From positions 682,001-746,000 of the forward strand of contig NZ_CP075188.1 in assembly GCF_020510525.1 (NCBI RefSeq): 64,000 nucleotides of DNA. Direction: 5' to 3'. The translations under genes were made by a program, and so were the position numbers. Shown here piece after piece: positions 9,379 to 35,653 of this stretch. The first letter of the stretch is position 1, and each line of letters starts with the position of its first letter. Origin of the DNA: Quatrionicoccus australiensis (lineage in GTDB: Bacteria > Pseudomonadota > Gammaproteobacteria > Burkholderiales > Rhodocyclaceae). The notes under the pieces are model-generated. The model was not told where the DNA came from and did not search any database. It saw only the letters and a program-made list of their open reading frames with translations.

Positions 9379-9412
9379 TCGTCATCTGGCTGTAACAAAC
9401 CGGGACTAACCT
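9379..9412 (+). promoter_or_regulatory. PHO box and -10 of pstS
   Basis: TCGTCAT (9379-9385), a 4-nt spacer and CTGTAAC (9390-9396) form a standard 18-bp PHO box. TAACCT (9407-9412) starts 10 nt later. PhoB control of pstS is established in proteobacteria, so this site serves as the local reference for the other boxes. Confidence 0.7.
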
Positions 9413-13217: not shown

Positions 13218-13907
13218 ATGAACGAAAGCCAACACCTTTCCAGCCAGTTCGACGAGGATCTCAGCCGTCTGCGCACGCATGTGCTGCAAATGGGCGGTCT
13301 GGTCGAAACCCAGGTTTCCGCTGCCATCGATGCCTACACCACGGGTGAAGTCGCCAGCGTGAAGAGCATTGTCGAGACCGACCGCAAGGTCAATGAGCTC
13401 GAGAAGGCCATCGACGACGATTGCGCCCACATCATCGCCAAGCGTCAGCCGACGGCATCCGATCTGCGCCTCGTGCTCGGCATCAGCAAGATCGTTACCG
13501 ATCTCGAGCGGGCTGGCGACGAAGCCAAGAAAATCGCCAAGGGCGTGCGCCGGATTTATGAAGGTGGTCACATGCCGTCGCAATACGGCGTCGGCATTCG
13601 CCATCTGGCCGAGGCCGCGCTGGTCATGGTGCGGCAGGCGCTTGATGCCTTTGCCCGTCTCGATACGGCGCAGGCCGCCAGCGTGATTCGTGCCGACACC
13701 GAGGTCGATACTGAATTCAAGTCGATCATCCGTCAGCTGATCACGCACATGATGGAAGATCCGCGTACGATCACGACGGCGATCGACATCATCTCGATCG
13801 CCCGTGCCATCGAACGGATCGGCGACCATGCGAAGAATGTTTCCGAGCAGGTGGTTTATGTCGTTGAGGGACGTGACATTCGTCATACCAAGGAGCTCAC
13901 CAAGTGA
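13218..13907 (+). CDS. phoU: phosphate signalling protein PhoU
   Basis: PhoU links the state of the Pst transporter to the PhoR kinase and lowers Pho signalling when phosphate is sufficient. This 229-aa protein is made of two homologous three-helix repeats. Metal-contact motifs are visible in the first (ETDRKVNELEKAID) and second (ADTEVDTEFKSI) repeats. ARAIERIGDHAKNVSEQVVY is the family's most conserved C-terminal segment. The start has GGGGAA upstream. Its TGA overlaps the phoB GTG (GTGA), so the sensor and regulator genes are translationally coupled to it. Confidence 0.96.
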   Translation: MNESQHLSSQFDEDLSRLRTHVLQMGGLVETQVSAAIDAYTTGEVASVKSIVETDRKVNELEKAIDDDCAHIIAKRQPTASDLRLVLGISKIVTDLERAGDEAKKIAKGVRRIYEGGHMPSQYGVGIRHLAEAALVMVRQALDAFARLDTAQAASVIRADTEVDTEFKSIIRQLITHMMEDPRTITTAIDIISIARAIERIGDHAKNVSEQVVYVVEGRDIRHTKELTK

Positions 13908-14590
13908 CACCGACGATTCTGGTCGTTGAAGACGAACCAGCCATCCAGGAACTTGTTGTCATCAATCTCAAGCACGCCGGCTTTCTGGTGGTGCGGGCGG
14001 GTAGCGCCGAGGAAGCCGAGTCGGCGATCCGCGCAGCGCTTCCCGACCTTGTGATCCTCGACTGGATGCTGCCCGGACAGTCCGGCGTGGCGCTGGCCAA
14101 GAAGATTCGTGCTGACGAGCGGACCCGTGAATTGCCGATCATCATGTTGACGGCGCGGGTGCATGAAGAAGACAAGGTGCAGGGTCTCGAGGCCGGGGCC
14201 GACGATTACGTCACCAAGCCGTTCTCGCCCAAGGAGCTGGTTGCCCGCGTCCGTGCCGTGCTGCGTCGCCGGGCCCCGCACCTGGCTGGTGAAGCGATCG
14301 AAGTGGGTGATCTGGCGCTCAATCCGGCAACTCACCGTGTGCTGGCGGGTGGTCAGCCGGTCGAGTTGGGGCCGACCGAATTCCGTCTGCTCTTTTTCTT
14401 CATGACGCACTCGGAGCGGGTATACACCCGTGCCCAGCTGCTTGATGAAGTCTGGGGTGACCACGTTTTCATCGAGGAGCGCACGGTCGATGTGCACATC
14501 CGCCGCTTGCGTGCCGCCCTTGAGCTTTCGGGTCATCACGAGCGCGTCGAGACGGTGCGCGGCACCGGTTATCGCTTCCGGGGAGCCTGA
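13904..14590 (+). CDS. phoB: phosphate regulon response regulator PhoB
   Basis: An OmpR/PhoB-type response regulator, 228 aa, which binds PHO boxes as tandem dimers when phosphorylated. The receiver has the acidic pocket (E9, D10), phospho-acceptor D53 in VILDWMLPG, the TAR switch (LTARVHEED) and the YVTKPF lysine. The C-terminal winged helix (about residues 130-228) includes FRLLFFFMTHSERVYTRAQL, ERTVDVHIRRLR and RGTGYRF. It starts with GTG overlapping the phoU stop. Its likely targets in this window are the PHO-box promoters before pstS, plcP, dgkA, the divergent outer membrane gene, the EAL/GGDEF gene and the chemoreceptor. Confidence 0.97.
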   Translation: MTPTILVVEDEPAIQELVVINLKHAGFLVVRAGSAEEAESAIRAALPDLVILDWMLPGQSGVALAKKIRADERTRELPIIMLTARVHEEDKVQGLEAGADDYVTKPFSPKELVARVRAVLRRRAPHLAGEAIEVGDLALNPATHRVLAGGQPVELGPTEFRLLFFFMTHSERVYTRAQLLDEVWGDHVFIEERTVDVHIRRLRAALELSGHHERVETVRGTGYRFRGA

Positions 14591-14595
14591 AGCGG

Positions 14596-15888
14596 GTGTC
14601 AGCGCAACTGATCAGGGCTTTGCTGCTCGCCTTGCTGGCTGCCGTCGTTGCTGTGCCAGTCGGATATTTCGTTGCGATCTGGGCCGGTTGGGCAGTCTTT
14701 TGTGCCGGTTTCGGCTTGCAGCTGGCTTTTCATTTTCGCAACTTTGCCCGGCTTGAGCGCTGGTCGCGGGCACCGGTCGTGGATAGCAGCCTGGAGGGCG
14801 AAGGTGCCTGGGATGGCGTTTTTGGCCGTCTCTATCGGCACGAAAAGGAGCTGCGGGCGCAGATTGCACGCCGCGATGACGAAATCGCCATGCTGATAGC
14901 TGCCGGCCAGGCGCTGACGGATGGCGTGGTGCTGCTCGACGAGAACAACCATATCCTGTTCTGCAATACCACGGCGGAGGCGCAGCTCGGTTTGGTGGTG
15001 CGGACCGACCGTGGGCAGCCGGTGGTCAATTTGGTCCGGCAGCCCGAGTTTGTCGGCTATCTGACCGAGGCGGACTTTTCCCGACCTTTGACCCTGCGTT
15101 CCGATCGTAGCGAAGATCGCGTGTTTTCGATCTATGTCCTGCCTTATGCCGGCAACCGGCGCCTGATGCAGGTCAAGGATGTCACCCAGACGGATCGTCT
15201 CGATCGCATGCGGCGTGATTTCGTCGCCAATGTCTCGCATGAGTTGCGTACGCCGCTGACGGTTCTGGCCGGTTTTCTTGAAACCCTGCAGGAAATCGAG
15301 GTCGACCGTGAGGAGCAGGCGCGCTATCTGGCATTGATGGCTGAGCAGTCTCAACGCATGCAGTCCATTGTCCAGGACTTGCTGACGCTGTCTTCGATCG
15401 AGTCGGCGCCACCGCCGGCCAACCAGCCCGTTGATATGCCCAGCCTGATCGACAAGTTGCGCCGGGATGCCGAAGCGCTTTCCAACGGGCGTCACCAGAT
15501 TGTTGTCGAAACCAATGCCCAGGCCGACCTGCGCGGTTCCGAGCCGGAGCTGGTCAGTGCCTTCGGTAACCTGGTAGCCAACGCTGTGCGCTATACGCCG
15601 GCTGGCGGCACGATACGTATCATCTGGCAGGCCAATGCCCAGGGGGCAGAGTTCGCAGTCGAGGACACTGGCATCGGTATCGAGGCCAAGCATATCCCGC
15701 GTCTGACCGAGCGCTTTTATCGTGTAGACCGGGGGCGTTCGCGCGATGCCGGCGGTACTGGCCTGGGCCTGGCGATTGTCAAACACTCGCTGAATCGTCA
15801 CCAGGCACAGCTGGAGATCAAGAGCATGCCAGGTGTGGGAAGCCGCTTTTCCGCCAAGTTTCCGGCCAATCGGGTGGTCGGCGTCTGA
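14596..15888 (+). CDS. phoR: phosphate regulon sensor kinase PhoR
   Basis: The membrane-bound histidine kinase partner of PhoB, 430 aa. Two N-terminal hydrophobic helices (about residues 6-28 and 30-48) have almost no periplasmic loop, as in E. coli PhoR. They are followed by a charged linker, a PAS domain (about 95-200), the H-box FVANVSHELRTPLTVL, the N-box NLVANAVRYTP and the G-boxes (EDTGIGI, GGTGLGLAIV). The lack of a periplasmic sensor fits sensing through PstSCAB-PhoU. It starts at GTG five nucleotides after phoB. Confidence 0.95.
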   Translation: MSAQLIRALLLALLAAVVAVPVGYFVAIWAGWAVFCAGFGLQLAFHFRNFARLERWSRAPVVDSSLEGEGAWDGVFGRLYRHEKELRAQIARRDDEIAMLIAAGQALTDGVVLLDENNHILFCNTTAEAQLGLVVRTDRGQPVVNLVRQPEFVGYLTEADFSRPLTLRSDRSEDRVFSIYVLPYAGNRRLMQVKDVTQTDRLDRMRRDFVANVSHELRTPLTVLAGFLETLQEIEVDREEQARYLALMAEQSQRMQSIVQDLLTLSSIESAPPPANQPVDMPSLIDKLRRDAEALSNGRHQIVVETNAQADLRGSEPELVSAFGNLVANAVRYTPAGGTIRIIWQANAQGAEFAVEDTGIGIEAKHIPRLTERFYRVDRGRSRDAGGTGLGLAIVKHSLNRHQAQLEIKSMPGVGSRFSAKFPANRVVGV

Positions 15889-16437: not shown

Positions 16438-17652
16438 TCAGTTCTTGACGGGCTTGACCCGGCTGGCAGCGAGCTTGGCACGGCCGCGCGCTTCGTCGGT
16501 ATCGTCGCCGTTGGCGACGGCAACGCCCATGCGGCGTTTGACGAAGGACTCCGGCTTGCCGAACAGGCGGATGTCGCTGCGTGGCACCGACAAGGCTTCG
16601 GCCACCCCTTCGAAGGCGATGCCTTTTTCTTCCATGCCGCCATAAATGACGGCCGAGGCGCCGGGTTCGCGCAGCGCGGTGTCGACCGGCAGGCCGAGGA
16701 TGGCGCGGGCATGCAGTTCGAATTCGGAGAAGCGTTGCGAGCACAGCGTGACCAGACCGGTGTCGTGCGGGCGCGGGCTGACTTCGGAGAACCAGACCAT
16801 GTCGCCCTTGACGAACAATTCGACGCCGAACAGGCCGCGCCCGCCGAGGTTGCCGGTGACGGCGGCGGCAATTTCCTGGGCGCGTTGCAGTGCGCCCGGC
16901 GTCATTGCCTGCGGCTGCCAGGATTCGACGTAATCGCCGGACACCTGAACATGGCCGATCGGCTCGCAGAAATGGGTTTCGACCTCGCCGGAGGCGCCGC
17001 GGGCACGTACCGTGAGCAGGGTGATTTCGTAATCGAAATCGATGAAGCCCTCGACGATGATGCGCCCGGAATTGACCCGGCCGCCGCTGGCGGCATAGTC
17101 CCAGGCTTTCTGCACGTCGTCCGGGCCGCGCAGCAGCGACTGGCCCTTGCCGGACGAAGACATCACCGGCTTGATGATGCACGGGTAGCCAATGCCTTGT
17201 TCACCATTGGCGCCATCAATGGCGGCCTGCAGTTCTGCAAGGGAGTCGGCAAACTGGTAGGGCGAGGTGGCCAGGCCGAGTTCTTCGGCGGCGAGGCGGC
17301 GGATGCCTTCGCGATTCATGGTCAGTTTGGTGGCGCGCGCGGTCGGGATGACCTCGGCGAGGCCGGCGGCCTCGATCTCGACCAGCATGTCGGTGGCGAT
17401 GGCTTCGATTTCCGGCACGATCAGGTGCGGCTTTTCCAGTTCGACCAGGCGGCGCAGCGCAGCGCCATCGGTCATCGAAATGACATGGGCGCGGTGCGCC
17501 ACCTGGTGGCCCGGTGCATCCGGGTAGCGGTCCACGGCGATCACCTCGACGCCCATACGCTGCAATGCTATGATCACCTCCTTGCCGAGCTCGCCTGAGC
17601 CGAGAAGCATGACGCGCAGGGCGCTGGGGGAAAGCGGGGTGCCGAGTTTCAT
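16438..17652 (-). CDS. purT: formate-dependent phosphoribosylglycinamide formyltransferase PurT
   Basis: PurT forms formyl-GAR from GAR, formate and ATP in purine synthesis, in place of folate-dependent PurN. The 404-aa length is typical. The ATP-grasp fold shows the N-terminal [18 protein letters not shown], the PEIEAIATD segment, the ATP-binding [14 protein letters not shown], and the metal/phosphate part [24 protein letters not shown] lies 8 nt before the ATG. An inverted repeat (17676-17696) precedes the ribosome site. It is divergent from the GT39 gene and has a GGTCGACCG repeat just past its stop. Confidence 0.96.
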
Positions 17653-17675
17653 TGGGTTCTCCTGGTAGGTGCCGG

Positions 17676-17696
17676 TTCAGCCGGTTTCCGGCTGAA
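17676..17696. repeat. inverted repeat in the purT leader
   Basis: TTCAGCCGG pairs with CCGGCTGAA around a 3-nt loop, about 24 bp upstream of the purT start. It could be an operator or an mRNA hairpin. No known purine regulator site is recognised. Confidence 0.4.
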
Positions 17697-17768
17697 AATC
17701 AGCCCCCGAATTTATGTGCAGCGCGGCAGCGAGTCAAGGCGGTTTGGGGATCTTTCTTGCAAACCCTA

Positions 17769-19415
17769 ATGTCTGTTCAACCAGCTCGTTCCATGTCCCT
17801 TACTCTTCCCCGCACCATCGAGCGCTTCCTGCTGTCACCCTGGTCATTGCTGCTGGCGGTGCTGCTTGCCTTCGTCCTGAACAGCTATTCGCTGCCGCTG
17901 ACCGATGTCGATGAAGGGGCTTTTTCCGAGGCGACGCGCGAGATGCTCGAGCGCGGCAACCTCGTTTCGCCGACCCTCAACGCGCAACCGCGCCACGACA
18001 AGCCTATCCTGATCTACTGGGCGCAGGCGGCCACGGTCAGCCTGCTCGGGCCGACCGAGTTCGGTTTCCGCCTGCCCTCCATTCTCGCCGCGATGCTCTG
18101 GATGTGGGCGCTCTACCGCTTCTGCCTGCGTCATGGCGACCGCACGACGGCGCTGGTCGCGACGCTGGCGATGGCCTTGTCCCTGCAGGTCGGGCTGATC
18201 GCCAAGGCGGCGATTGCCGATGCCTTGCTCAATCTGTTCATCTGCCTGGCGCTGTTTGGCGTTTACGACTATTTCGTTGCGGTGCGGGCCGGGCAGGGCG
18301 TGCGTGAAAGCCGCCGCCTGCTGGCGTGGACCTATGCCGTGCTCGGCCTCGGCTTCCTGACCAAGGGGCCGGTTGCGGTGATGTTCCCGCTGCTGATCGG
18401 CAGCCTGCTCTTCATTTCGGCCGGCCACTGGCGGGCCTGGCTGCGCGCCTTGTTCTGGCTGCCCGGCTGGGCGCTCTTCCTGGCCATCGTCGTGCCCTGG
18501 CATGTGATGGTTTACCTCGATCAGGGCGATGCCTTCTTCCGCGGTTTTTACCTGAAACACAATGTCGACCGCTACACCAGTACGCTCGAAGGCCACGGCG
18601 GCAATCCCTTCTATTACCTGATCGCGCTGCCTTTCGTACTGTTGCCGTTTACCGGCTGGCTGCTGGCGATCAGCGGCAAGCTGTGGATGGGTATGCGCAG
18701 CAAGTTGCCGGAAGGCGATTTCGAGCGTTTCCTGCTCATCTGGTTTGGCGTCGTTTTCGTGTTTTTCTCGTTCTCGCGCACGCAGTTGCCGCATTACCTG
18801 CTTTACGGCTGCACGCCGCTGTTCATCCTGCTGGCACGGCACCGCCTCGATAGCGAGCGGCGCCTGCTCGCTTTCCTGCCGCAGATCCTGTTCGGTCTGC
18901 TGCTCGCTTTCCTGCCGCAGATTCTCGATTTTGCCGCGAGCCGCACGACGCGACCGCTGGAAATGGCCTTGCTGAACGAGTTGACCGCTGGCTTTGCCGA
19001 TGCGTCGCGCTGGTTGCTCGCCGGCTTTGCCGTGCTGGTCGCGGCTCTGGCCTTCTGGCGTCGCCTGCCGGTCTGGCAAGGCTTGGTGCTGGCCGGTTTC
19101 CTGCAGGCGCTGGTGGTGTTCGGCGTCGTTTTCCCGGTCGTGCTCAATGCGACGCAGGGGCCGGTGCGCGAGGCTGGGCGAGTGGCCCGGCAGAGCGGCG
19201 AAAAAGTCGTGCTCTACAAGCTGTATCAGCCCAGTTTCAGCGTTTACCGTCAGGCGGTGACGCCGTCCGGCAAGCCGGAACTTGGCGAACTGGTTCTCGT
19301 GCGCAGCGATCGTTATGTCGAGTTGCAAAAGGATGTGGCGCCGCTGCGGATCGACGAAGTGTACAAGCGCGGTTTCCTTGTTCTTGGTCGCGTGGTTGCC
19401 GGTCCGGCCCAATGA
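17769..19415 (+). CDS. GT39/ArnT-like membrane glycosyltransferase
   Basis: A 548-aa polytopic inner-membrane protein of the ArnT/PMT (GT39/GT83) type. Such enzymes move a sugar from a polyprenyl-phosphate donor to lipid A or protein on the periplasmic side. The first loop carries the family's acidic motif (LPLTDVDEGAFSEATREML) and the HDKPILIYWAQA segment. About ten TM helices follow, with a periplasmic C-terminal part (about 460-548). The start is uncertain (ATG 17769 or 17793; neither has a clear ribosome site). The stop overlaps the PAP2 start by 4 nt, so the two likely act together on envelope lipid. The sugar and acceptor are unknown. Confidence 0.85.
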   Translation: MSVQPARSMSLTLPRTIERFLLSPWSLLLAVLLAFVLNSYSLPLTDVDEGAFSEATREMLERGNLVSPTLNAQPRHDKPILIYWAQAATVSLLGPTEFGFRLPSILAAMLWMWALYRFCLRHGDRTTALVATLAMALSLQVGLIAKAAIADALLNLFICLALFGVYDYFVAVRAGQGVRESRRLLAWTYAVLGLGFLTKGPVAVMFPLLIGSLLFISAGHWRAWLRALFWLPGWALFLAIVVPWHVMVYLDQGDAFFRGFYLKHNVDRYTSTLEGHGGNPFYYLIALPFVLLPFTGWLLAISGKLWMGMRSKLPEGDFERFLLIWFGVVFVFFSFSRTQLPHYLLYGCTPLFILLARHRLDSERRLLAFLPQILFGLLLAFLPQILDFAASRTTRPLEMALLNELTAGFADASRWLLAGFAVLVAALAFWRRLPVWQGLVLAGFLQALVVFGVVFPVVLNATQGPVREAGRVARQSGEKVVLYKLYQPSFSVYRQAVTPSGKPELGELVLVRSDRYVELQKDVAPLRIDEVYKRGFLVLGRVVAGPAQ

Positions 19416-20212
19416 GCGACTACGGCCGCACTGACAACGAACGACTGTTGCCCTGGCTGGCGCTTTGTCTGGCGCTGCTGACCGGCGTTTTCGTTCTGAC
19501 CCAGGGCTGGTTTGGCGGCTTTCGCGAAGCGCAGGCACTGAGCAATCATTTGCCGGGCTGGTTCTGGCAGTCGCTGACGGTGCTTGGCGACGAGCGCGTA
19601 CTGCTCGCGCTGATGCTGCCGTTTTGCCGGCGTTATCCGCGGGTCTTCTGGAGCATCATCGTGGCGGCGGTGATCGGCGGGCTGGTTTCGCGCGGCATCA
19701 AGATCTGGCTGGAAATGCCGCGACCGGCGGCGATGTTTGCGGCCGACCAGATCAACATTATTGGTATTCGCCTGACCAGCAAGAGTTTTCCGTCCGGGCA
19801 TACCGTGTCGGCGTTTTCCTTTGTTTCCGTCTGGCTCGCCATCGGTGGCTGGCGGCTGTGGCCATTGTTGCCGCTCGCCGTGCTGGCCGGTTTCTCGCGT
19901 GTGGCGGTTGGCGCCCACTGGCCGTTCGACGTGCTGGTTGCTGCCTGTATCGGCGTGCTCGGTGCCTGGTTCGGTGTCAAGCTGGCCCGCCGCTGGCGCT
20001 GGGGTCTGCGCGTTCGGCCGCATCGCGGCCTGGTTTGCATTGCAGCGCTGGCGGTGGCGACCCTGCCGTTCGAGAGCCAGGGCTATCCCGACTCTTTGGC
20101 GGTGCGCCTGCTGGTCTGTGTCTGGGGGCTGAGCGCTTTTGCGATCCACTACCTGCTGCCGCTGCTGCGTGGTGGCTGGCGTGGCGGCGTGCAGTCGGAC
20201 AGCGAAGCCTAG
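19412..20212 (+). CDS. PAP2-family membrane phosphatase
   Basis: A 266-aa integral-membrane lipid phosphatase of the PAP2/PgpB type. It has several TM helices and the active-site motifs GIKIWLEMPRP (K-x6-RP), KSFPSGHTVSAFSF (PSGH) and SRVAVGAHWPFDVLVAACIG (SR-x5-H-x3-D). Family members dephosphorylate undecaprenyl pyrophosphate, phosphatidic acid or lipid A outside the cytoplasmic membrane. It is coupled to the GT39 gene by an ATGA overlap. Only 65 bp separate it from plcP, and that gap holds the tandem PHO boxes, so plcP probably has its own promoter. Confidence 0.88.
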   Translation: MSDYGRTDNERLLPWLALCLALLTGVFVLTQGWFGGFREAQALSNHLPGWFWQSLTVLGDERVLLALMLPFCRRYPRVFWSIIVAAVIGGLVSRGIKIWLEMPRPAAMFAADQINIIGIRLTSKSFPSGHTVSAFSFVSVWLAIGGWRLWPLLPLAVLAGFSRVAVGAHWPFDVLVAACIGVLGAWFGVKLARRWRWGLRVRPHRGLVCIAALAVATLPFESQGYPDSLAVRLLVCVWGLSAFAIHYLLPLLRGGWRGGVQSDSEA

Positions 20213-20215
20213 TTC

Positions 20216-20271
20216 CTGTAACAAAAGCTTAATCGCCACGTCACCCGGCTTTCATCGCCGGGTTCTATCGT
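20216..20271 (+). promoter_or_regulatory. tandem PHO boxes and -10 of the plcP operon
   Basis: Four half-sites lie at exact 11-bp steps: CTGTAAC (20216), GCTTAAT (20227), ACGTCAC (20238) and CTTTCAT (20249). TATCGT (20266-20271) begins 10 nt after the last. The ATG is at 20278, so a transcript from this -10 would be nearly leaderless. Confidence 0.65.
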
Positions 20272-20277
20272 GGCGAC

Positions 20278-21063
20278 ATGCCACGGGTCAGATCAGTCTT
20301 TTTATCCGATATCCACCTGGGTACGCGAGCGTGCCAGGCGGATCGTCTCCTTGATTTCCTGCGCGAGTATTCCGCCGAGCAGACCTACCTGATCGGCGAT
20401 ATCGTCGATTTCTGGTCGATGAGCCGCGGCATTCACTGGACGCAGGCGCAGAACACCGTCGTCCAGAAGCTGCTGCGCCGGGCCCGTCACGGCGAGCGTG
20501 TCGTCTTCATCCCCGGCAATCACGACGAGGCGCTGCGCGACTACTGCGGCATCATCTTCGGCGAGATCGAAGTGGTCGATGAGCTGATCCACGAGACGGC
20601 CGACGGCCGCCGCTTCCTGCTCATCCACGGCGACGTCTTCGATCAGGTGACGCGGCATCATCGCTGGGTCGCCGTGCTCGGCGACAAGGCCTACGACCTG
20701 CTGGTCCGCCTCAATCACTGGCTGTCCTGGTGTCGGCGCAAGCTCGGTCTGGCCGGTTACTGGTCGCTCGCCGGCTACGCCAAGCGCAAGGTCAAGACGG
20801 CGCTCAATTTCATTTTCGATTTCGAGGAATCGGCCATCCATCACGCCAAGGAGCGGGGTCTGGACGGCGTCATCTGCGGCCATATCCATTGGGCGACGAT
20901 CCGCGAAATCGACGGACTCAGCTACGTCAATTGCGGCGACTGGGTCGATTCCTGTACCGGCATCGTCGAGCATTTCGACGGTCGCCTTGAACTGGTTGCC
21001 TGGGGCATGCAGGCGGCGCAGCCCGCGCTGGCGGCGCCGGTCGCTGAAACTGCGGAGGTCTGA
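20278..21063 (+). CDS. plcP: PlcP-type phospholipase C (metallophosphoesterase)
   Basis: A calcineurin-like metallophosphoesterase of 261 aa, of the kind often labelled UDP-2,3-diacylglucosamine hydrolase. All metal motifs are present: SDIHLG (9-14), GDIVDFW, GNHDE (80-84), IHGDVFD and GHIHWATIRE. The companion segments GDWVDSC, YWSLAGYAKRKVKTALNFI and EESAIHHAKERG match the PlcP clade of Sinorhizobium and marine bacteria, where PlcP removes the head group of phospholipids under phosphate starvation to give diacylglycerol. Tandem PHO boxes precede it and a lipid glycosyltransferase follows with no gap, the classic plcP-agt arrangement. No ribosome site is visible. LpxH-like activity is the alternative, but the context argues against it. 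Confidence 0.85.
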   Translation: MPRVRSVFLSDIHLGTRACQADRLLDFLREYSAEQTYLIGDIVDFWSMSRGIHWTQAQNTVVQKLLRRARHGERVVFIPGNHDEALRDYCGIIFGEIEVVDELIHETADGRRFLLIHGDVFDQVTRHHRWVAVLGDKAYDLLVRLNHWLSWCRRKLGLAGYWSLAGYAKRKVKTALNFIFDFEESAIHHAKERGLDGVICGHIHWATIREIDGLSYVNCGDWVDSCTGIVEHFDGRLELVAWGMQAAQPALAAPVAETAEV

Positions 21064-22248
21064 ATGCGTGTCCTGATGGTGTCCGATGTCTATTTTCCGC
21101 GGGTCAACGGGGTGTCGACCTCGATCGAGACCTTCCGCCAGTGCTTGCGCGAACTCGGGGTCGAGGTGCGCCTGGTCGTGCCGCGCTATGGCGACGAACC
21201 GGATGAGCCGGGCATCATTCGCGTCGCCGGCCGGCCGGTGCCGGGCGATCGCGAAGACCGCCTGGTCGGCTGGCGCGCCATGCACAAGGCGGTGCTGGCC
21301 GCCGCGGCGGATTGCGACCTGATCCACATCCAGACCCCCTTCATCGCCCATTACGCCGGCCTCAAGGCGGCACGTCGCCTCGGCCTGCCGGTACTGGCGA
21401 CTTATCACACGCTGTTCGAGGAATACCTGCAGCACTACGCGCCTTTCCTGCCCGGTGACTGGTTGAAGGGTCAGGCGCGCGCCTTCTCGCGGCGCCAGTG
21501 CAATGCGCTGGATGCGGTGGTCGTGCCGTCTACGGCGATGCAGCAGCGCCTGCTCGCTTATGGTGTCACCGCGCCGCTGCATGTGCTGCCGACCGGCATT
21601 CCGCTCGCCCGTTTCGGGCGCGGCAACGGGGCTGCCTTTCGCGCCGAGCATGGCATTCCTCTCGGCCAGCCGGTGGCGCTGTTTGTCGGGCGTGTCGCGC
21701 ACGAGAAGAATATCGGTTTCCTGCTCGAAGCCATGCTGCGTACCCGCGACATGCGTGCGGACGCGCTGCTGCTGATCGCCGGCGAAGGCCCCGCAATGAA
21801 CGATCTCAAGGAGCGGGTGCGACAGTTCGGCCTGCTTGATGCGGTGCGTTTCATTGGTTATCTCGATCGCCAGCAGGCCTTGCCGGACTGTTATGCGGCA
21901 GCCGATGTCTTCGTTTTTGCCTCGCGCACCGAAACCCAGGGCCTGGTCCTGCTCGAAGCGATGGCGGCCGGTTTGCCGGTCATCGCGCTTTCGGAAATGG
22001 GGACCACCGATATTCTCGCTCCGGGGCGCGGCGCTTACTCGCCGCCAGCCGACGCAGCGGCTTTCGGCGAAGTGCTGGGGTACTTCTTCAATCAGCCGCT
22101 TGCCTGGCGATACCTGGCAGAAGAAGCGCCGGCCTATGCTGCGGAGTGGTCCGATGCGGCGATGGCGGCGCGACTTGCGGCGCGTTATCGCGAACTCGCC
22201 GGGCGGGAAAATGCCCTTGCCGAGACGTTGACCGTTGCGGCGACCTGA
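21064..22248 (+). CDS. GT4 lipid glycosyltransferase (Agt-like)
   Basis: A 394-aa family 4 glycosyltransferase with the GT-B fold. The N-terminal SDVYFPRVNGVSTSIETF and the HIQTPF segment are typical of diacylglycerol glucosyl/mannosyl transferases. The donor half carries FVGRVAHEKNIGFLLEAM and the E-x7-E motif region (ETQGLVLLEAMAAGLPV). It starts directly at the plcP stop, so the two are cotranscribed. The expected role, from plcP-agt operons elsewhere, is to add a sugar to PlcP-released diacylglycerol, giving a phosphorus-free glycolipid. The sugar donor cannot be read. A 10-bp hairpin follows the gene. Confidence 0.85.
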   Translation: MRVLMVSDVYFPRVNGVSTSIETFRQCLRELGVEVRLVVPRYGDEPDEPGIIRVAGRPVPGDREDRLVGWRAMHKAVLAAAADCDLIHIQTPFIAHYAGLKAARRLGLPVLATYHTLFEEYLQHYAPFLPGDWLKGQARAFSRRQCNALDAVVVPSTAMQQRLLAYGVTAPLHVLPTGIPLARFGRGNGAAFRAEHGIPLGQPVALFVGRVAHEKNIGFLLEAMLRTRDMRADALLLIAGEGPAMNDLKERVRQFGLLDAVRFIGYLDRQQALPDCYAAADVFVFASRTETQGLVLLEAMAAGLPVIALSEMGTTDILAPGRGAYSPPADAAAFGEVLGYFFNQPLAWRYLAEEAPAYAAEWSDAAMAARLAARYRELAGRENALAETLTVAAT

Positions 22249-22261
22249 TCGCCGTGGCAAC

Positions 22262-22288
22262 TTTCCGGCAGTTGGCAGCTGCCGGAAA
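22262..22288 (+). terminator. hairpin after the plcP-glycosyltransferase operon
   Basis: A perfect 10-bp stem TTTCCGGCAG/CTGCCGGAAA with a 7-nt loop lies just after the glycosyltransferase stop. The T-tract is weak (AGCTTGTT), so termination may be partial. Confidence 0.5.
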
Positions 22289-22291
22289 AGC

Positions 22292-22321
22292 TTGTTATTA
22301 AGAACTGTTCGCATTTATAAT
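22292..22321 (+). promoter_or_regulatory. Fur-type operator within a sigma70 promoter
   Basis: TTGTTA (22292-22297) and TATAAT (22316-22321) are 18 bp apart. Between them TAAGAAC-T-GTTCGCA (22299-22313) fits the 7-1-7 Fur pattern with two mismatches. It controls the PepSY-DUF2271-DUF4198-reductase genes. Confidence 0.55.
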
Positions 22322-22414
22322 CGCTTCAGCCAGCCAGAACTCTGATCGCTGACGGAGAATTTCTCCGTCCTGCCGGTCCGGGATGCCAGCCAGACATCCC
22401 TTAGACGAGTTGCC

Positions 22415-23116
22415 ATGGCTGCCAAATTTTCCCTGCGTTTCCTTTGTCCGTCGCGCGCCTTTGCCGCGGTTGCCGGCTCACAGCCGTCCGATCCGGAACT
22501 GGCCGCAGCCCAGCGGCGCAGTGCCTGGCGAAAACTCCTGCTCAAGCTGCACTGGATCAGCTCGGCGCTGTGCCTGCTCGGCATGCTCCTGTTCAGCGTC
22601 ACCGGCATCACACTCAATCATGCCGCGCAGATCGAGGCCAAGCCGCAGATCACGCGCAGTACGCTGCCTTTGCCGGCCGACTTGCTGCCCGGCTTGCAAG
22701 GCCTGGCGGAAGCAGCGCCGGCGCGTCTGCCGCCAGCGGTCGACGCCTGGTTGGGCGCCAATTTCCACGTTGACCTGAGCGCAGCCAGTCCGGAATGGTC
22801 GGCCGAGGAAATCTACCTGCCGCTGCCGCGCCCGGGCGGCGATGCCTGGCTGCGCATCGGACTCGAAGACGGCGAGGTCGAATACGAACTGACCGAGCGC
22901 GGCTGGATTTCCTGGCTCAACGACCTGCACAAGGGGCGCCATACCGGCGGCGTGTGGAGCCTGTTCATCGATCTCTTTGCGCTGGCCTGCCTGTTCTTCT
23001 CGGTCACCGGCTTGCTGCTGCTCCAGATGCAGGCCGGACAACGGCCCTCGACCTGGCCGCTGGTCGCTTTCGGTTGCCTGCTGCCGGTCCTCATTGCCCT
23101 GCTTTTCATTCATTGA
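22415..23116 (+). CDS. PepSY-associated TM helix protein
   Basis: A 233-aa inner-membrane protein. A cytoplasmic N-terminus leads into TM1 (ISSALCLLGMLLFSVTGITL). A periplasmic PepSY-like part follows (about residues 85-175, with WISWLNDLHKGRHTG), then two C-terminal TM helices. The LHxGRHTG-type loop before a helix with paired His is typical of PepSY_TM proteins found with siderophore systems, where they serve in or with ferric reductases. It is first in a four-gene set driven by a Fur-type promoter. Direct reductase activity is inferred. Confidence 0.8.
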   Translation: MAAKFSLRFLCPSRAFAAVAGSQPSDPELAAAQRRSAWRKLLLKLHWISSALCLLGMLLFSVTGITLNHAAQIEAKPQITRSTLPLPADLLPGLQGLAEAAPARLPPAVDAWLGANFHVDLSAASPEWSAEEIYLPLPRPGGDAWLRIGLEDGEVEYELTERGWISWLNDLHKGRHTGGVWSLFIDLFALACLFFSVTGLLLLQMQAGQRPSTWPLVAFGCLLPVLIALLFIH

Positions 23117-23133
23117 TCCCCACGGAGAATTTC

Positions 23134-23649
23134 ATGCAAAAACGCAAACTCCTGCTCGCGGCCGTGCTGGCCAGCGCGCTGCCGGCGCTGGCGGCGGAGT
23201 TGTCGGTCAAGATCGACATTCCGCAACTGGCGGTTGCCGAATACCACCGGCCCTACATCGCCATGTGGCTGGAAAAGGCCGACGGCGGTCAGGTCACGCA
23301 ACTGGCCGTGTGGTACGACCAGAAAAAGAAGGACAACGGCGGCACCAAGTGGCTCAAGGACATGCGCCAGTGGTGGCGCAAGGGCGGCCGCGACCTCGAA
23401 GTGCCGCTCGATGCGGTGACCAGCGCGACGCGTGCGCCCGGCCTGCATAGCCTGACTTTCGTTGCCGGCAAGGCGCCGCTCGGCCAGTTGGCAGCCGGCG
23501 AATACACACTGTTTGTCGAAGCCTCGCGTGAAGCGGGCGGCCGCGAAGTCGTCCGCGTGCCGCTCACCTGGCCGCCCAAGGAAGCTCGCTCGACCGGCAG
23601 CAAGGGCCAGGAAGAGCTGGGCAATGTCACCGTGCAACTGAAACCCTGA
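23134..23649 (+). CDS. DUF2271 periplasmic protein
   Basis: A 171-aa protein with a Sec signal peptide (residues 1-20, ending LPALAA). The mature part matches DUF2271: YHRPYIAMWLEKADG, LAVWYDQKKKDNGGTKWLKD, the WWRK motif and the SATRAPGLHSL segment. These proteins are periplasmic, occur beside PepSY and flavodoxin-reductase genes in iron-regulated loci, and have no established biochemical role. GGAG precedes the ATG. It follows the PepSY gene by 17 bp and precedes the DUF4198 gene by 19 bp. Confidence 0.85.
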   Translation: MQKRKLLLAAVLASALPALAAELSVKIDIPQLAVAEYHRPYIAMWLEKADGGQVTQLAVWYDQKKKDNGGTKWLKDMRQWWRKGGRDLEVPLDAVTSATRAPGLHSLTFVAGKAPLGQLAAGEYTLFVEASREAGGREVVRVPLTWPPKEARSTGSKGQEELGNVTVQLKP

Positions 23650-23668
23650 TTTCTTCGGAGGAAACACC

Positions 23669-24493
23669 ATGCATTCCCTGACTCGCTCCTTTCTCGCCGT
23701 TGCCCTGCTCGCTTCGGTTTCGGCGGCGCACGCGCATCGCACCTGGCTGCTGCCCTCGGCTGCCCAGGTGGAAGGCAAGGATCCCTGGGTAACGGTAGAC
23801 GCTGCCGTTTCCGAGGATTTGTTCGAACTCGGCGCCAACGCTCTCAAGCTCGATGGCCTGAGCATCACCGATCCGGATGGCGGCGCCGTGCAGCCGAACC
23901 AGACCTTTGCCGGAAAATATCGCAGCAGCCTGGACCTCAAGCTGGCCAAAAGCGGTACCTACCGGATTTCCCTGGTCAGCGAGACGGCCATGGCCAGCTA
24001 CAAATTGAACGGCGAGATGAGGCGCTGGCGCGGCAATGTTGCCGATCTGAAAAAGGAAGTCCCGGCCGGGGCGGAAGAGCTGTCGGTGAGCACGACGCTT
24101 GGCCGCCTGGAAACCTTTGTCACCGCTGGCAAGCCGAACGCCACTGCGTTGAAACCCGTGGGTAGTGGCCTGGAACTGATTCCGCTTGATCACCCGAGCG
24201 AATTCCTCGCCGGCCAACCGGCCCGTTTCCGCCTGCTGCTCGACGGCCAGCCCTTGCCCGGTCTGACTGTTGCGGTGGTGCCGGGCGGCGTCAAGTATCG
24301 AGGCGTGCTCAAGGAAACGGCGCTGACCACCGATGCCAAGGGCGAATTCACCGTCAATTGGCCGATGCCGCAGATGTACTGGATCAACGCCGGCTACCCG
24401 GCGCGCGTCACTGTGCCGGAAGGCCAGCCGCGCCCGCCGATGCCGGCCAAACGCTACAACTACAGTGGCACTTTCGAGGTGCTGCCGCAATAA
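23669..24493 (+). CDS. DUF4198 periplasmic protein
   Basis: A 274-aa exported protein with a signal peptide cleaved near AHA-HRTW (about residue 22). It resembles DUF4198/NikM-like domains, which start right after the signal with His-Arg-Thr-Trp-Leu and contain Ig-like beta repeats. Landmarks are AHRTWLLPS, the SEDLFELGANALKLDGL block, IPLDHPSEFLAGQP and the C-terminal YNYSGTFEVLP. Proteins of this type occur in metal-uptake loci; the N-terminal His may be a metal ligand (inference). It has a strong GGAGGA ribosome site and the same operon context as the DUF2271 gene. Confidence 0.85.
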   Translation: MHSLTRSFLAVALLASVSAAHAHRTWLLPSAAQVEGKDPWVTVDAAVSEDLFELGANALKLDGLSITDPDGGAVQPNQTFAGKYRSSLDLKLAKSGTYRISLVSETAMASYKLNGEMRRWRGNVADLKKEVPAGAEELSVSTTLGRLETFVTAGKPNATALKPVGSGLELIPLDHPSEFLAGQPARFRLLLDGQPLPGLTVAVVPGGVKYRGVLKETALTTDAKGEFTVNWPMPQMYWINAGYPARVTVPEGQPRPPMPAKRYNYSGTFEVLPQ

Positions 24494-24504
24494 GTCTGCG
24501 TTAC

Positions 24505-24533
24505 GGGCGCGTCCGGCTGCGGTCGGCGCGCCC
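24505..24533 (+). terminator. hairpin after the DUF4198 gene
   Basis: GGGCGCG (24505-24511) pairs with CGCGCCC (24527-24533) around a G+C-rich loop. No real T-tract follows, so this is weak evidence for partial termination before the reductase gene. Confidence 0.3.
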
Positions 24534-24651
24534 ATTTGCATGCGTGCTTGCTTGATGCGGCCAAGCCCGGGCATGCGCGCGTGCTCCTCCCGTTTTTTCC
24601 GCTTCGGTCGGCCACTGTCTGCCGTTCTCGATAGCGTTTCCTGGATGTTCG

Positions 24652-25989
24652 ATGCTCTGGATGCTTGAACCGGCGCGCGGTGTCGCTGCCGCGCTGCTGA
24701 CCCTGGCCTATCTTGGCTTGTGCTGGTGGGCCTGGCGGCGCCGGGCGCCGTTCCCTTTGCCTGCAGCAAATGCCGACTGGACGGTGGTCTACGCCAGCCA
24801 GACCGGCACGGCGCAGGCCCTGGCGCAGCGTACAGCGCTGGCGCTCGAGCGCAGTGGCGCGACGGTGCGCTGCCTGCCGCTCGACCTGCTCGCGGCGGCC
24901 GAACTGCAGGCCGGCGGGCGTTTCCTGTTTGTCGTCAGCACGAGCGGCGAGGGCGATGCGCCGGATAACGCGCGGCGTTTTGTCCGCGACCTGTTTTCCG
25001 AAAACCTCGAATTGGCCGGCGTCGAATTCGCGCTGCTCGCGCTGGGCGACCGCAACTACCGGTATTTTTGCGGCTTTGCCGCACGCCTCGAAGACTGGCT
25101 GCTGGCGCAGGGCGCGCGGCAGCGTTTTGCCCGCATCGAGGTCGATCGCGGCGACGCGGCGGCGCTCGCTGCCTGGCGCGAACGTCTGGCCGAACTCGGT
25201 GCGGCCGATGAGTTTGCCGCAGCGGCCGATGATTTTTGCTCCTGGCGGCTGGTCGACCGGCAGCACCTTAATCCGGGCAGCGCCGGTGGCGAGGTTTATC
25301 AGCTCGATTTTGCCGCGAATGGTGCAACGCCGAATTGGGCGGCCGGCGATCTGGCACAGATCCGGCATGCCGCCGATGCCGCTTGCCGGCGCGACTACTC
25401 GCTGGCCTCGCTGCCCGAAGAAGGCGGTTTGGTGCGTCTGCTCGTCCGCCGTCACATCCGGGCCGACGGTGCCAGCGGCCAGATGTCCGGCTGGCTGACG
25501 CGGGATCTGCCGCTGGGCGGCGAGGTCGCCTTGCGCCTGCGCCCGCATCCGGCCTTCCATCTCAATGCCAACCGCTTCCGGCCATTGATCTGCATCGGCA
25601 ACGGCGTCGGCCTGGCCGGCCTGCGCGCCCTGCTCGCCAGCCGGATTGCGGCGGGCGTCGACGACAACTGGCTGCTCTTCGGTGAACGCCACGAAAAGCA
25701 CGATTTTCACTGGCGCAGCGAGTTGACCGGCTGGCAGAGCGCCGGCTTTCTCGCCCGGCTCGACACGGCATTTTCACGCGATGCCGGCGACGGGCGCTAC
25801 GTGCAGGATTGCCTGGCCGCCAACGGCGATTTGTTGCGGCAGTGGCTGGCACGCGGTGCGGCGGTCTATGTCTGCGGCAGCCGGCTGGGCATGGCGGAGG
25901 GCGTGGACGGGGTGCTGCGTGATTTATTGGGTAAAGAAGGCGTCGACCGTCTGGCGGACGAAGGGCGTTACTGCCGCGATGTTTTTTGA
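24652..25989 (+). CDS. membrane-anchored flavodoxin/FAD-NADPH reductase
   Basis: A 445-aa flavoprotein related to sulfite reductase alpha and cytochrome P450 reductase. An N-terminal TM anchor (about 8-28) precedes a flavodoxin domain (about 42-185) with the FMN loop YASQTGTAQALAQ, STSGEGDAPDNAR and LGDRNYRYFCGFA. An FAD/NADPH reductase domain follows, with the FAD motif RDYSLAS, the NADPH-binding ICIGNGVGLAGLRALL and the C-terminal VYVCGS. It probably passes NADPH electrons to the inner-membrane PepSY partner for ferric iron release. It lies 158 bp after the DUF4198 gene and before a Fur-controlled receptor gene. The ribosome site is poor. Confidence 0.85.
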   Translation: MLWMLEPARGVAAALLTLAYLGLCWWAWRRRAPFPLPAANADWTVVYASQTGTAQALAQRTALALERSGATVRCLPLDLLAAAELQAGGRFLFVVSTSGEGDAPDNARRFVRDLFSENLELAGVEFALLALGDRNYRYFCGFAARLEDWLLAQGARQRFARIEVDRGDAAALAAWRERLAELGAADEFAAAADDFCSWRLVDRQHLNPGSAGGEVYQLDFAANGATPNWAAGDLAQIRHAADAACRRDYSLASLPEEGGLVRLLVRRHIRADGASGQMSGWLTRDLPLGGEVALRLRPHPAFHLNANRFRPLICIGNGVGLAGLRALLASRIAAGVDDNWLLFGERHEKHDFHWRSELTGWQSAGFLARLDTAFSRDAGDGRYVQDCLAANGDLLRQWLARGAAVYVCGSRLGMAEGVDGVLRDLLGKEGVDRLADEGRYCRDVF

Positions 25990-26020
25990 CCAACAATTTT
26001 TAACGGCTCGTTACAAATCG

Positions 26021-26049
26021 TTGCATGTGCGGATGAGAATCGTTATCAT
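26021..26049 (+). promoter_or_regulatory. Fur box within the TonB receptor promoter
   Basis: TGAGAAT-C-GTTATCA (26034-26048) is a near-perfect 7-1-7 Fur site. It overlaps the -10 TATCAT (26044-26049), which is 17 bp from a weak -35, TTGCAT (26021-26026). Confidence 0.75.
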
Positions 26050-26153
26050 GTGGGCCGTTAAGTAAATCAGCCAGCCATCTGCCAAGGGCCGCCTCGCGCG
26101 GCAAGCGCGGAACGCCAGCCAAATCCGGTTAAATCATCAATAGGAAAAGGCTC

Positions 26154-28454: not shown

Positions 28455-28466
28455 TCTACCCATGTT

Positions 28467-28498
28467 GCTGCCCGGCCTCCTGAGCCGGGCAGCTTTTT
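28467..28498 (+). terminator. intrinsic terminator after the TonB receptor gene
   Basis: A perfect 10-bp stem GCTGCCCGGC/GCCGGGCAGC with a 7-nt loop is followed by TTTTT. Confidence 0.85.
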
Positions 28499-28537
28499 CG
28501 CCTGAATCGGTCGTTGACCGTCTCAAGGAGTATTTCG

Positions 28538-29215
28538 ATGCTGCTACATGTCCCCAATGTCCTGACGCAAGAGCAGGTTGCCGAGTGCCGCAGGTTGATG
28601 GCCGAAGCCGAATGGGTGGATGGTGCGACGACAGCCGGGGTGCAGGCGGTGCAGAGCAAGCGCAACCGGCAACTGCCGGAAGGCACGCCCCTCATCGAGT
28701 ACTTGCGGGAAATGATGGTCACGGGCTTGATGAAAAATCCGCTTTTCTTCTCGGCGGCGCTACCCAAAACCATTCTGCCGCCCTATTTCAACAGCTATCA
28801 GGATGGCGGCTACTACGGCAATCACATTGACAATGCGATCCGCTATGCACACGGCAGCAAGCAGGCGATCCGCACCGACGTGTCGACTACGATTTTTCTC
28901 TCCGAGCCCGACGAATACGAAGGCGGCGAGCTGATCGCCGAGGACAGCTACGGTTGTCACGAGGTCAAGCTGGCGGCCGGCGATGCCATCGTCTATCCGT
29001 CGACCAGCCTGCACCGCGTCGAGCCGGTGACCAAGGGCGTGCGCGTCGCTTCCTTTCTGTGGACGCAGAGCCTGGTGCGCGATGCCTGGCGGCGTGCCAT
29101 GCTGTTTGATCTCGACATGAACATCCTCAAGCTGCGCGGCCAGCTCGGCGACACACCCGAAGTCGTCGCGCTGACCGGGCATTATCACAAGCTGTTGCAG
29201 CAATGGGCGGAATGA
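28538..29215 (+). CDS. piuC: Fe(II)/2-oxoglutarate dioxygenase, PiuC/YbiX type
   Basis: A PKHD-type Fe(II)/2-oxoglutarate-dependent hydroxylase of 225 aa, cytoplasmic. The prolyl-4-hydroxylase-like fold shows the iron ligands in GNHIDNAIRY (HxD) and the distal His in YPSTSLHRVEPVTKGVR, whose Arg binds the cosubstrate. Other landmarks are FNSYQDGGYYG and LSEPDEYEGGEL. Homologues sit next to catecholate receptors (ybiX with fiu, piuC with piuA); the substrate is unknown. AAGGAG lies 7 nt before the ATG. The stop overlaps the next gene's ATG, so the two are coupled. Confidence 0.93.
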   Translation: MLLHVPNVLTQEQVAECRRLMAEAEWVDGATTAGVQAVQSKRNRQLPEGTPLIEYLREMMVTGLMKNPLFFSAALPKTILPPYFNSYQDGGYYGNHIDNAIRYAHGSKQAIRTDVSTTIFLSEPDEYEGGELIAEDSYGCHEVKLAAGDAIVYPSTSLHRVEPVTKGVRVASFLWTQSLVRDAWRRAMLFDLDMNILKLRGQLGDTPEVVALTGHYHKLLQQWAE

Positions 29216-34057: not shown

Positions 34058-34091
34058 CTGTCATCAAAGCTTAGCGCAGTCTGATTACCGT
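34058..34091 (+). promoter_or_regulatory. plus-facing PHO box and -10 of dgkA
   Basis: CTGTCAT (34058-34064), CAAA and GCTTAGC (34069-34075) are followed after 10 nt by TACCGT (34086-34091). The ATG is at 34113, preceded by GGAGATG. It is arranged back to back with the minus-facing box. Confidence 0.6.
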
Positions 34092-34112: not shown

Positions 34113-34529
34113 ATGCAGGAACCTACGCCGCACGAACTCGGGCTGGACCCGAAGCACGAGTCGCCCTTCAAGGGCAAGACCGGACTGCGCCGGGTCTGGA
34201 ATGCCTTCAACTACTCGGTCGCCGGTCTCAAGGCGGCCTACCTGTGCGAAGACGCTTTCCGCCAGGAAGTCTGGCTCGCCTTGTTGCTGATTCCTACGGC
34301 CTTCCTGCTACCCGTGCCCTGGTTGGGGCGCGGCCTGATGATCGCCAGCCTGCTGTTGGTGCTGATCGTCGAATTGCTCAATTCTGCCATCGAGGCGGTG
34401 GTCGACCGGGTGAGCTTGGAAAACCACCGTCTGGCCAAGCGCGCCAAGGATATCGGCAGCGCCGCGGTACTCGTCTCGCTGGTCAATGTGATGGTGGTCT
34501 GGGCTTGCGTCTGGCTGGCGGCATCATGA
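34113..34529 (+). CDS. dgkA: diacylglycerol kinase DgkA
   Basis: A small integral-membrane diacylglycerol kinase, 138 aa, which phosphorylates diacylglycerol to phosphatidic acid with ATP. The N-terminal extension (PHELGLDPKHESPFKGKTG) precedes the amphipathic helix and three TM helices. Active-site segments VELLNSAIEAVVDRVS and AKDIGSAAVLVSL are intact, as is ALLLIPTAF in TM1. GGAG precedes the ATG. The stop overlaps the next gene's ATG (ATGA). With a PHO box upstream and a glycolipid-type transferase downstream, it would recycle or balance the diacylglycerol pool during phosphate starvation (inference). Confidence 0.93.
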   Translation: MQEPTPHELGLDPKHESPFKGKTGLRRVWNAFNYSVAGLKAAYLCEDAFRQEVWLALLLIPTAFLLPVPWLGRGLMIASLLLVLIVELLNSAIEAVVDRVSLENHRLAKRAKDIGSAAVLVSLVNVMVVWACVWLAAS

Positions 34530-35653
34530 CCCGCCTCGATATCGCCTTTGTGACTGAAACCTTCCCGCCCGAGGTCAATGGCGTGGCGATGACGGTCGGA
34601 CGTCTGGTTGCCGGTCTGCGCGAGAGCGGGCACCGGGTCAGCGTCATCCGGCCGCGTCAGGGCGCAGCGGATTTTGGCAATGAACACGAGTTGACCGTCA
34701 GCGGCCTGCCGCTGCCCGGTTACCCCGGCCTGCGCCTCGGCCTGCCGGCCGGACGCCGGCTGACGCGCCAGTGGCGGCATCAGCGGCCGGATCTGGTGCA
34801 TGTCGTCACCGAAGGCCCGCTCGGCTGGTCGGCGGTCAATGCGGCTCGCCGGCTCGGCATCCCGGTGACTTCGGCCTTTCATACCAATTTCGACCGCTAC
34901 AGCGTGCATTACGGCGTCGGCTGGATGCGGCCGGCCGTGGCCGCCTACCTGCGTACGCTGCATCGGCGCACGCGTGCGACCATGGTGCCGACCGCTGCCC
35001 TGGCGGCCGATCTGGCCGGCGAAGGGATCAGCGGTGTGCGCGTCGTCGGGCGCGGCGTCGATACCAGGCTGTTCAACCCGGTGCGGCGCAGCGAAGCGAT
35101 GCGCGCCAGCTGGGGCGTCGGTGTTGCCGGTCCGGCCTGTCTCTATGTCGGCCGGCTGGCGGCGGAGAAAAACCTGGCGCTGGTGCAGAAAAGTTTTGCC
35201 GCAATCAAGGCCGAGCATCCGGCGGCGCGCATGATCTGGGTCGGCGATGGTCCGTCGGCGGCGCAACTGGCGCGCCAGCATGCCGACCACCATTTTGCCG
35301 GTGTGCGCCTTGGTGAGGATCTGGCGGCGCATTACGCCAGTGCCGATCTCTTCCTTTTCCCCAGCCTGACCGAAACCTACGGCAACGTCGTTGCCGAAGC
35401 CATGGCCAGCGGCCTGCCGGTCGTCGCCTATCGCAGCGCGGCCGCGGCCGAACTGGTGCAGCATGAAGAAAACGGCACGGTCGCCTCGCCGGGCGACGAA
35501 AGCGGCTATCTCGCCGCGGCGCTGTGGATGCTCGGTGACGGCAAGCGCCTCAGCCGGCTGGCTGAAGCGGCGCGGCAGACCATGTTGCCGCATAGCTGGG
35601 CCGGCGTCGTCGCCAGTTTTGAAAGCGTCGCCCGCGAGGCGATCGCCGGCTGA
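34526..35653 (+). CDS. GT4 glycosyltransferase, likely diacylglycerol-type
   Basis: A 375-aa family 4 glycosyltransferase (GT-B fold). It starts with IAFVTETFPPEVNGVAMTVG and contains HVVTEGPLGWSAVNAARRLG and SAFHTNFDRYSVHYG. These segments resemble the mannosyl/glucosyl transferases that build glycolipids (SqdX/MgtA-like). The donor half has YVGRLAAEKNLALVQKSF, FLFPSLTETYGNVVAEAMAS and the E-x7-E pair. It is coupled to dgkA by an ATGA overlap and lies 14 kb from the Agt-like gene next to plcP, so the organism may make two glycolipids. The acceptor and sugar are unproven. Confidence 0.85.
   Translation: MTRLDIAFVTETFPPEVNGVAMTVGRLVAGLRESGHRVSVIRPRQGAADFGNEHELTVSGLPLPGYPGLRLGLPAGRRLTRQWRHQRPDLVHVVTEGPLGWSAVNAARRLGIPVTSAFHTNFDRYSVHYGVGWMRPAVAAYLRTLHRRTRATMVPTAALAADLAGEGISGVRVVGRGVDTRLFNPVRRSEAMRASWGVGVAGPACLYVGRLAAEKNLALVQKSFAAIKAEHPAARMIWVGDGPSAAQLARQHADHHFAGVRLGEDLAAHYASADLFLFPSLTETYGNVVAEAMASGLPVVAYRSAAAAELVQHEENGTVASPGDESGYLAAALWMLGDGKRLSRLAEAARQTMLPHSWAGVVASFESVAREAIAG

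Follow-up and report, generated by a model that had tools for sequence, protein, structure and literature searches.

A predicted phosphate-starvation membrane-remodelling module with a putatively leaderless plcP message in Quatrionicoccus australiensis

The published work consulted here on phospholipid replacement concerns marine bacteria, methanotrophs, Pseudomonas and members of the Rhizobiales. The PlcP-Agt pathway is backed by mutants in P. aeruginosa (PMC8528852) and in M. trichosporium (PMC9239053), where a PlcP homologue stands beside a GT4 glycosyltransferase (PA3219-PA3218 and plcP-agt, respectively), as it does in the locus described here. A Pho box has been described for the P. aeruginosa operon (PMC8528852) and one is likewise seen at plcP in this locus; the marine arrangements, types 1-6 of Sebastian et al., also place plcP beside glycosyltransferases and Pho boxes (PMC4796936). 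Characterised GTcp/Agt carries the motifs GRVAxEKN and FPSxTDTFG and a His-Asp dyad, according to the section of the source concerned (PMC8231724). In Pseudomonas BIRD-1, DagK is listed with PlcP among the proteins enriched under Pi depletion (PMC5082522).

The window, meaning the whole stretch of DNA analysed, comprises 64,000 nt of the 4.17-Mb genome of Quatrionicoccus australiensis (NZ_CP075188.1:682001-746000). Close homologues carry the names Azonexus and Dechloromonas, and the host of the plcP module is a freshwater-type, Azonexus/Dechloromonas-like betaproteobacterium. The locus is probably a phosphate-starvation membrane-remodelling module, made up of a plcP-GT4 pair with a predicted Pho-controlled, leaderless message and a dgkA-GT4 pair predicted to be transcribed separately. 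The genes pstS-pstC-pstA-pstB-phoU-phoB-phoR sit 5' of it, the pst and phoU names being given by eye and phoB and phoR scored by family. The features are the following.

9379..9396, forward strand: PHO box of pstS, a control with the same box to -10 spacing as plcP but with an AGGAG leader
13904..15888, forward strand: phoB and phoR, predicted regulators (TIGR02154, 351 bits; TIGR02966, 442 bits; both above cut-off)
20216..20255, forward strand: four PHO half-sites at 11-bp steps, CTGTAAC at 20216, GCTTAAT at 20227, ACGTCAC at 20238 and CTTTCAT at 20249 (four-site scan)
20266..20271, forward strand: -10 element TATCGT, 10 bp past the last half-site (genus comparison)
20278..20278, forward strand: predicted transcription start, the A of the plcP ATG (22-nt box distance, S. 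meliloti calibration, C at -1)
20278..21063, forward strand: plcP, PlcP-type metallophosphoesterase (predicted phospholipase C), 261 aa (families, alignment, tree)
21064..22248, forward strand: GT4 glycosyltransferase of the TETQG clade, 394 aa (family profiles, motif, tree)
34058..34075, forward strand: PHO box of dgkA, CTGTCAT-CAAA-GCTTAGC, second half-site weak (genus loci)
34086..34091, forward strand: -10 element of dgkA, TACCGT, 10 bp past the box (genus loci)
34113..34529, forward strand: dgkA, prokaryotic diacylglycerol kinase (PF01219, 114.6 bits)
34526..35653, forward strand: second GT4 glycosyltransferase, motif TETYG, sharing the bases ATGA with dgkA (profile and genome search)

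The plcP stop codon TGA occupies 21061-21063 and the GT4 ATG begins at 21064, so no gap separates the two genes, as the preliminary description had reported. Upstream, an ArnT/PMT-like glycosyltransferase and a PAP2 phosphatase (17652-20212) end 65 bp 5' of plcP. These were considered as operon members and rejected: PAP2 lies outside the conserved unit because it is within reach at just 21 of 65 genus and 3 of 127 family loci. The pair is perhaps an optional lipid-A or undecaprenyl module.

Comparison of gene content ties the TETQG glycosyltransferase to plcP. Both occur together in 67 of 76 genus genomes and the same nine are without either, a count that leaves out the weak plcP matches of two genomes (G211 and G263) and includes some incomplete genomes and a few partial matches. 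The GT4 begins 0 or 1 nt past plcP in 61 of 65 genus loci, as extrapolated from alignments, and a GT4 follows plcP directly in 43 of the 125 family loci with enough sequence. The GT4 of the window had been taken for the known agt, an assignment that does not hold. The window protein has GRVAHEKN (209) and FASRTETQG, with a glutamate at 290, in place of the FPSxTDTFG donor-binding motif with its aspartate; it is about 28-35% identical to the plcP-adjacent GT4s of alphaproteobacterial and Pseudomonas loci, and it falls in a separate clade. Among the GT4s 3' of plcP in loci L159-L216, mostly from alphaproteobacteria and Pseudomonas, 34 of 36 carry TDTxG. A tree of 39 rows, drawn at random except for the window protein (15 of 134 TETQG, 14 of 39 TDTFG/TDTLG and 10 of 55 TETFG/TETYG sequences), puts the 15 TETQG rows in one clade at 100/100 and 13 of the 14 TDTxG rows in another at 100/99, the latter being recognised as the Agt clade by motif and neighbourhood rather than by a characterised Agt sequence. 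Motif alone is insufficient to classify these enzymes, since the remaining protein (L135) bears the Agt motif yet groups with the third clade. By sequence comparison, then, the GT4 beside plcP is not an Agt orthologue. An Agt orthologue elsewhere in the genome was also sought and discarded, as a Bradyrhizobium Agt-type query gives good scores for the two GT4s of the cluster alone (142.6 and 90.6 bits), the following match reaching 27.4. In one genus member the TETQG gene (G217:C63:10367-11506) has an in-frame TGA.

On the same kind of evidence the plcP module is larger than the preliminary description had it, in that the PHO-box dgkA and a second GT4 belong to it. The second GT4, located by searching the genome with Agt-type and TETFG-type queries, is also not an Agt orthologue; a search at E 1e-80 recovers it from 63 of the 76 genus genomes, and dgkA adjoins it in 29 of the 30 loci read. 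The dgkA box and -10 recur in the genus: of 29 loci, 28 have a first half-site that fits.TGTCAT in the fixed register, which was read directly because a generic upstream scan chose other, spurious boxes in most loci. Both GT4s share a contig in 55 genomes and a strand in 53, and the second lies no more than 5 kb downstream of the first on the same strand in 49 of the 55; these distances use 61 of 67 first-GT4 and 57 of 63 second-GT4 places, and one omitted genome (G268) would make the figure 50 of 56. The separation is 11-12 kb in G226, G221 and the window genome, and 754 kb in G147. In the window the two halves stand ~12 kb apart (22249-34012), with PepSY, flavoprotein-like, TonB-receptor-like and FMN-enzyme-like genes between them, named mostly by eye, the PepSY protein alone being family-scored. 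Most of the genus genomes compared are without this split, which G221 shares and which is thus apparently a derived insertion. Near plcP in 134 family loci, dgkA is found in at least 45, the second GT4 in at least 63 and the first GT4 in at least 71, these being lower bounds because the flanks span ~1-2.6 kb. The order plcP-GT-dgkA-GT occurs in at least five of these loci and GT-dgkA-GT-plcP in at least 13, plus one with a further GT.

It is unlikely that both GT4s glycosylate phosphatidylglycerol or another lipid instead of diacylglycerol, with PlcP mainly recovering phosphate and the glycosyltransferases altering surface charge. Both have the N-acetylglucosaminyl phosphatidylglycerol synthase model as their best NCBIfam match, at 138 bits for the GT4 beside plcP and 151 for the second, and that neither is an Agt orthologue agrees with such a role; however, these scores are far under the cut-off of 480, and a Bradyrhizobium Agt-type protein also matches that model first (66 bits). 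The alpha-monoglucosyldiacylglycerol synthase model, for its part, scores the TETQG GT4 at 128 bits versus 52 for the Agt-type protein, and the presence and absence of the GT4 follows that of plcP, which fits use of the PlcP product. Diacylglycerol would be the likelier acceptor.

Pho control of plcP was part of the preliminary description, as were four half-sites at exact 11-bp steps and a -10 element twelve bases before the ATG; both elements lie where they had been placed, and control by Pho agrees with them as far as sequence reaches. All half-site bit scores depend on a matrix hand-written from the consensus CTGTCAT. With it, the array outscores every other four-site position of the window, out of 127,922 on the two strands (26.1 bits; runner-up 17.2), and as half-site pairs it takes ranks 8 and 10 of 127,966; the middle two half-sites are weak alone (3.0 and 4.1 bits in the window). 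The layout is that of a PhoB promoter, with 7-4-7 direct repeats replacing the -35 about 10 bp before the -10. Of 67 genus plcP starts, 65 were read, the window's included, and two (G244 and G265) were left out as cut by contig ends; the 65 loci are kin and do not amount to 65 independent events. When every box-to-ATG distance from 12 to 40 nt is tried, the best four-site register stops 22 nt before the ATG in 63 of 65 loci and 23 nt before it in 2, and it leads the next register by 6.7 bits or more. The scores of all four half-sites are positive in 57 loci and those of three in the other 8, and the -10 reads TATCGT in 51 of 65 and TATCTT in 7. Mean information, calculated from the 63 gap-free sequences, reaches 1.1-1.3 bits for the half-sites and 1.8 for the -10, as against 0.2-0.5 for the spacers. 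As the same register scores best genus-wide while the spacers vary, the array is beyond chance.

This geometry is stronger than had been claimed for it. Of the 65 genus loci, 62 have a C immediately before the plcP ATG, and just 2 have a Shine-Dalgarno-like motif. In S. meliloti, 16 of 33 genes have their PhoB box 22-25 nt 5' of the mapped start, and each of the 171 leaderless starts begins with AUG (PMC3616915). Because the 22-nt distance of the genus matches this calibration, transcription is expected to start at the A of the ATG, and the comparative geometry points strongly to a leaderless plcP message, in line with the near-leaderless message foreseen earlier. Two other Pho promoters serve as controls. 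At pstS (30 loci read; 61 genomes matching) the box to -10 spacing is 10 bp as at plcP, the box-to-ATG distance is 54-59 nt in five lengths, and AGGAG precedes the gene in 30 of 30 loci; at dgkA (29 of 30 loci read, the remaining locus having no dgkA match) a 37-nt register comes with GGAG in 29 of 29. It is improbable that plcP has a leader after all, from a start further upstream or read-through from the PAP2 gene, and that the fixed distance has another cause. Between the PAP2 gene and plcP a terminator scan lists nothing, which would allow read-through; against this, the -10 to ATG distance is fixed in 63 of 65 genus loci while the spacers are variable, plcP is without a conserved Shine-Dalgarno, PAP2 stands upstream in only 21 of 65, and both controls, pstS and dgkA, combine a longer distance with a Shine-Dalgarno-like motif.

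A gene divergent from dgkA (33328-34054, reverse strand), whose product has no Pfam match and is outer-membrane-like by eye, is preceded by a PHO-like pair (TTGTCACCAAAATGTCAG), 10 bp, TACCAT and then an ATG 9 nt later. It is possibly another near-leaderless Pho gene, judging from this spacing.

A hairpin at 20233-20276 overlaps half-sites 3-4 and the -10 (-27.6 kcal/mol, z = -6, with 0 of 200 shuffles equally stable). Its stability would suit a role as a regulatory RNA or in blocking the translation of read-through messages, but such a role is very unlikely: a hairpin of about -28 is found in only 3 of 65 genus loci (L001, L238, which is 98% identical to L001, and L287), two further loci reach -26, the others range from -6 to -24, and a leaderless message would exclude it. 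The hairpin was dropped as a functional part, being strong in the window yet not conserved in the genus, which suggests a chance or young element.

Outside the genus, the short plcP box-to-ATG geometry is frequent but not general, whereas within it the distance is fixed, so far as box scans tell. A significant box by a 50-shuffle test is present in 64 of the 119 family loci scored (of 128; nine lack a start codon or enough upstream sequence). Among the 114 non-genus loci 59 have a box and 55 have no significant one; at face value, the distance to the ATG in the 59 is 22-25 nt in 21, 33-34 nt in 7, 44-49 nt in 19 and otherwise in 12. Several loci at 33-49 nt seem, by eye, to hide an additional weaker half-site. 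A mechanical flag, set without a null, was applied to a further 87 loci (six from the family, 80 from genome contigs and one from a plasmid record, some duplicating genus organisms): the start codon lies 20-26 nt past the best box in 26, and 17 of these have a box score of at least 9, including five Bradyrhizobium, Mesorhizobium denitrificans and Pseudaminobacter. In a deep plcP clade, L131-L134 (50-53% identity), a GTG start seemingly stands 23-25 nt past a half-site, by eye; leaderless GTG starts there would be unusual.

The plcP product matches PF00149 and PF12850, and the segments YWSLAGYAKRK, GDWVDSC and GHIHWATIRE, earlier cited as PlcP-type, are all in its translation. A tree of 39 rows, one of them a 63-residue fragment (L150), splits 32 PlcP rows, named by homology (the S. 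meliloti row L217 included), from 7 LpxH rows at 100/100, which supports the earlier choice of PlcP over LpxH. Row L217 stems from an S. meliloti Ak57 record called pSymB, of 3.7 Mb, and the replicon name looks doubtful. Two LpxH equivalogs score the protein at 41-43 bits versus cut-offs of 134 and 190 (TIGR01854, 41 versus 190), and a separate LpxH elsewhere in the genome scores 234 bits, above cut-off. Residues D11, H13, D41, N81, H117, H202 and H204, presumably the metal ligands, are invariant in 16 aligned sequences. Sources name close homologues UDP-2,3-diacylglucosamine hydrolases, the mislabelling that had been anticipated. An enzyme of that LpxH type, which those names and the distant profile matches would suggest, is extremely improbable given the tree, the sub-cut-off score, the genome's own LpxH and the motif GNHDE, which corresponds to GNRD both in the LpxH of H. 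influenzae and in that of the genome itself. The product is a PlcP-type metallophosphoesterase and, from its sequence, a predicted phospholipase C.

The simplest scheme would combine PhoB control, PlcP, two GT4s and DgkA recycling, in which PhoB binding, the transcription start, the enzyme activities, the lipid products and the role of DgkA are predictions. At low phosphate, PhoR-activated PhoB would occupy the four half-sites and bring RNA polymerase to the -10, and the first base transcribed would be the A of the plcP ATG, so that the plcP-GT4 message would lack a leader. PlcP would strip phosphate-bearing head groups off phospholipids to leave diacylglycerol, which the neighbouring TETQG-type GT4 would glycosylate. 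The separately transcribed PHO-box dgkA-GT4 pair, ~12 kb downstream, would add the second glycosyltransferase, and the DgkA kinase could turn surplus diacylglycerol back into phosphatidic acid.

Neither PlcP nor Pho control is out of the ordinary in this field; the novelty lies in the exact, putatively leaderless geometry, in a pair of GT4s that are not Agt and in a module that contains dgkA. More tentatively, the whole may amount to a betaproteobacterial four-gene form of lipid remodelling (PlcP, two non-Agt GT4s and DgkA) in which a deliberately leaderless mRNA driven by PhoB encodes PlcP, pstS and dgkA are Shine-Dalgarno-dependent, and the plcP geometry also occurs in Bradyrhizobium and Mesorhizobium. 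If so, translation of PlcP, the committing enzyme, would be independent of Shine-Dalgarno initiation, and recurrence in those two genera would imply an old or convergent control device. Azonexus/Dechloromonas-type bacteria are tied to wastewater phosphorus cycling, and a conserved compact module in them predicts new glycolipids. For the regulated translation of leaderless messages in Proteobacteria, the fixed PHO-box-to-ATG geometry would be a sharp test case that brings its own controls, pstS and dgkA of the same genome.

A literature search covering few subscription papers gave, for leaderless mRNA with the PHO box and PhoB, two papers on unrelated topics (titles and abstract starts), and within the same coverage no paper was found on glycolipids under phosphate starvation in Dechloromonas, on Rhodocyclaceae glycolipids under phosphorus limitation, on leaderless mRNA and transcription start sites in betaproteobacteria, or on the four-gene version. 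Among the matches listed, the sole on-subject paper for plcP, leaderless and diacylglycerol kinase combined is the Pseudomonas proteome, and no title on monoglucosyldiacylglycerol treats PlcP in betaproteobacteria.

In comparing the locus with the known systems, the differences lie in the partner enzyme, the gene content and the promoter. The P. aeruginosa and M. trichosporium partners are of the FPSxTDTFG type, whereas the window partner is TETQG and of another clade; unlike those plcP-agt pairs, the window cluster includes dgkA and a second GT4. The marine types 1-6 list agt, btaAB and glycosyltransferases for di- and triglycosyl-DAG, and dgkA goes unmentioned in that section of the source (PMC4796936). 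GTcp/Agt of Candidatus Pelagibacter HTCC7211 has the GT4 family and the GRVAxEKN motif in common with the window GT4 (PMC8231724, in the section concerned); TETQG as against TDTFG means that the usual GT4 glutamate replaces the aspartate, and identity to Agt-type proteins is ~30%. LpxH shares with the window PlcP the metallophosphoesterase superfamily and the public name, but forms a separate clade; PlcP is sub-cut-off on the LpxH model and the genome has its own LpxH elsewhere. Finally, the plcP message of the window is predicted to lack a leader; of ten plcP loci from Pseudomonadaceae, by contrast, not one is flagged for a start at 20-26 nt, and five have the ATG 42-43 nt past the box.
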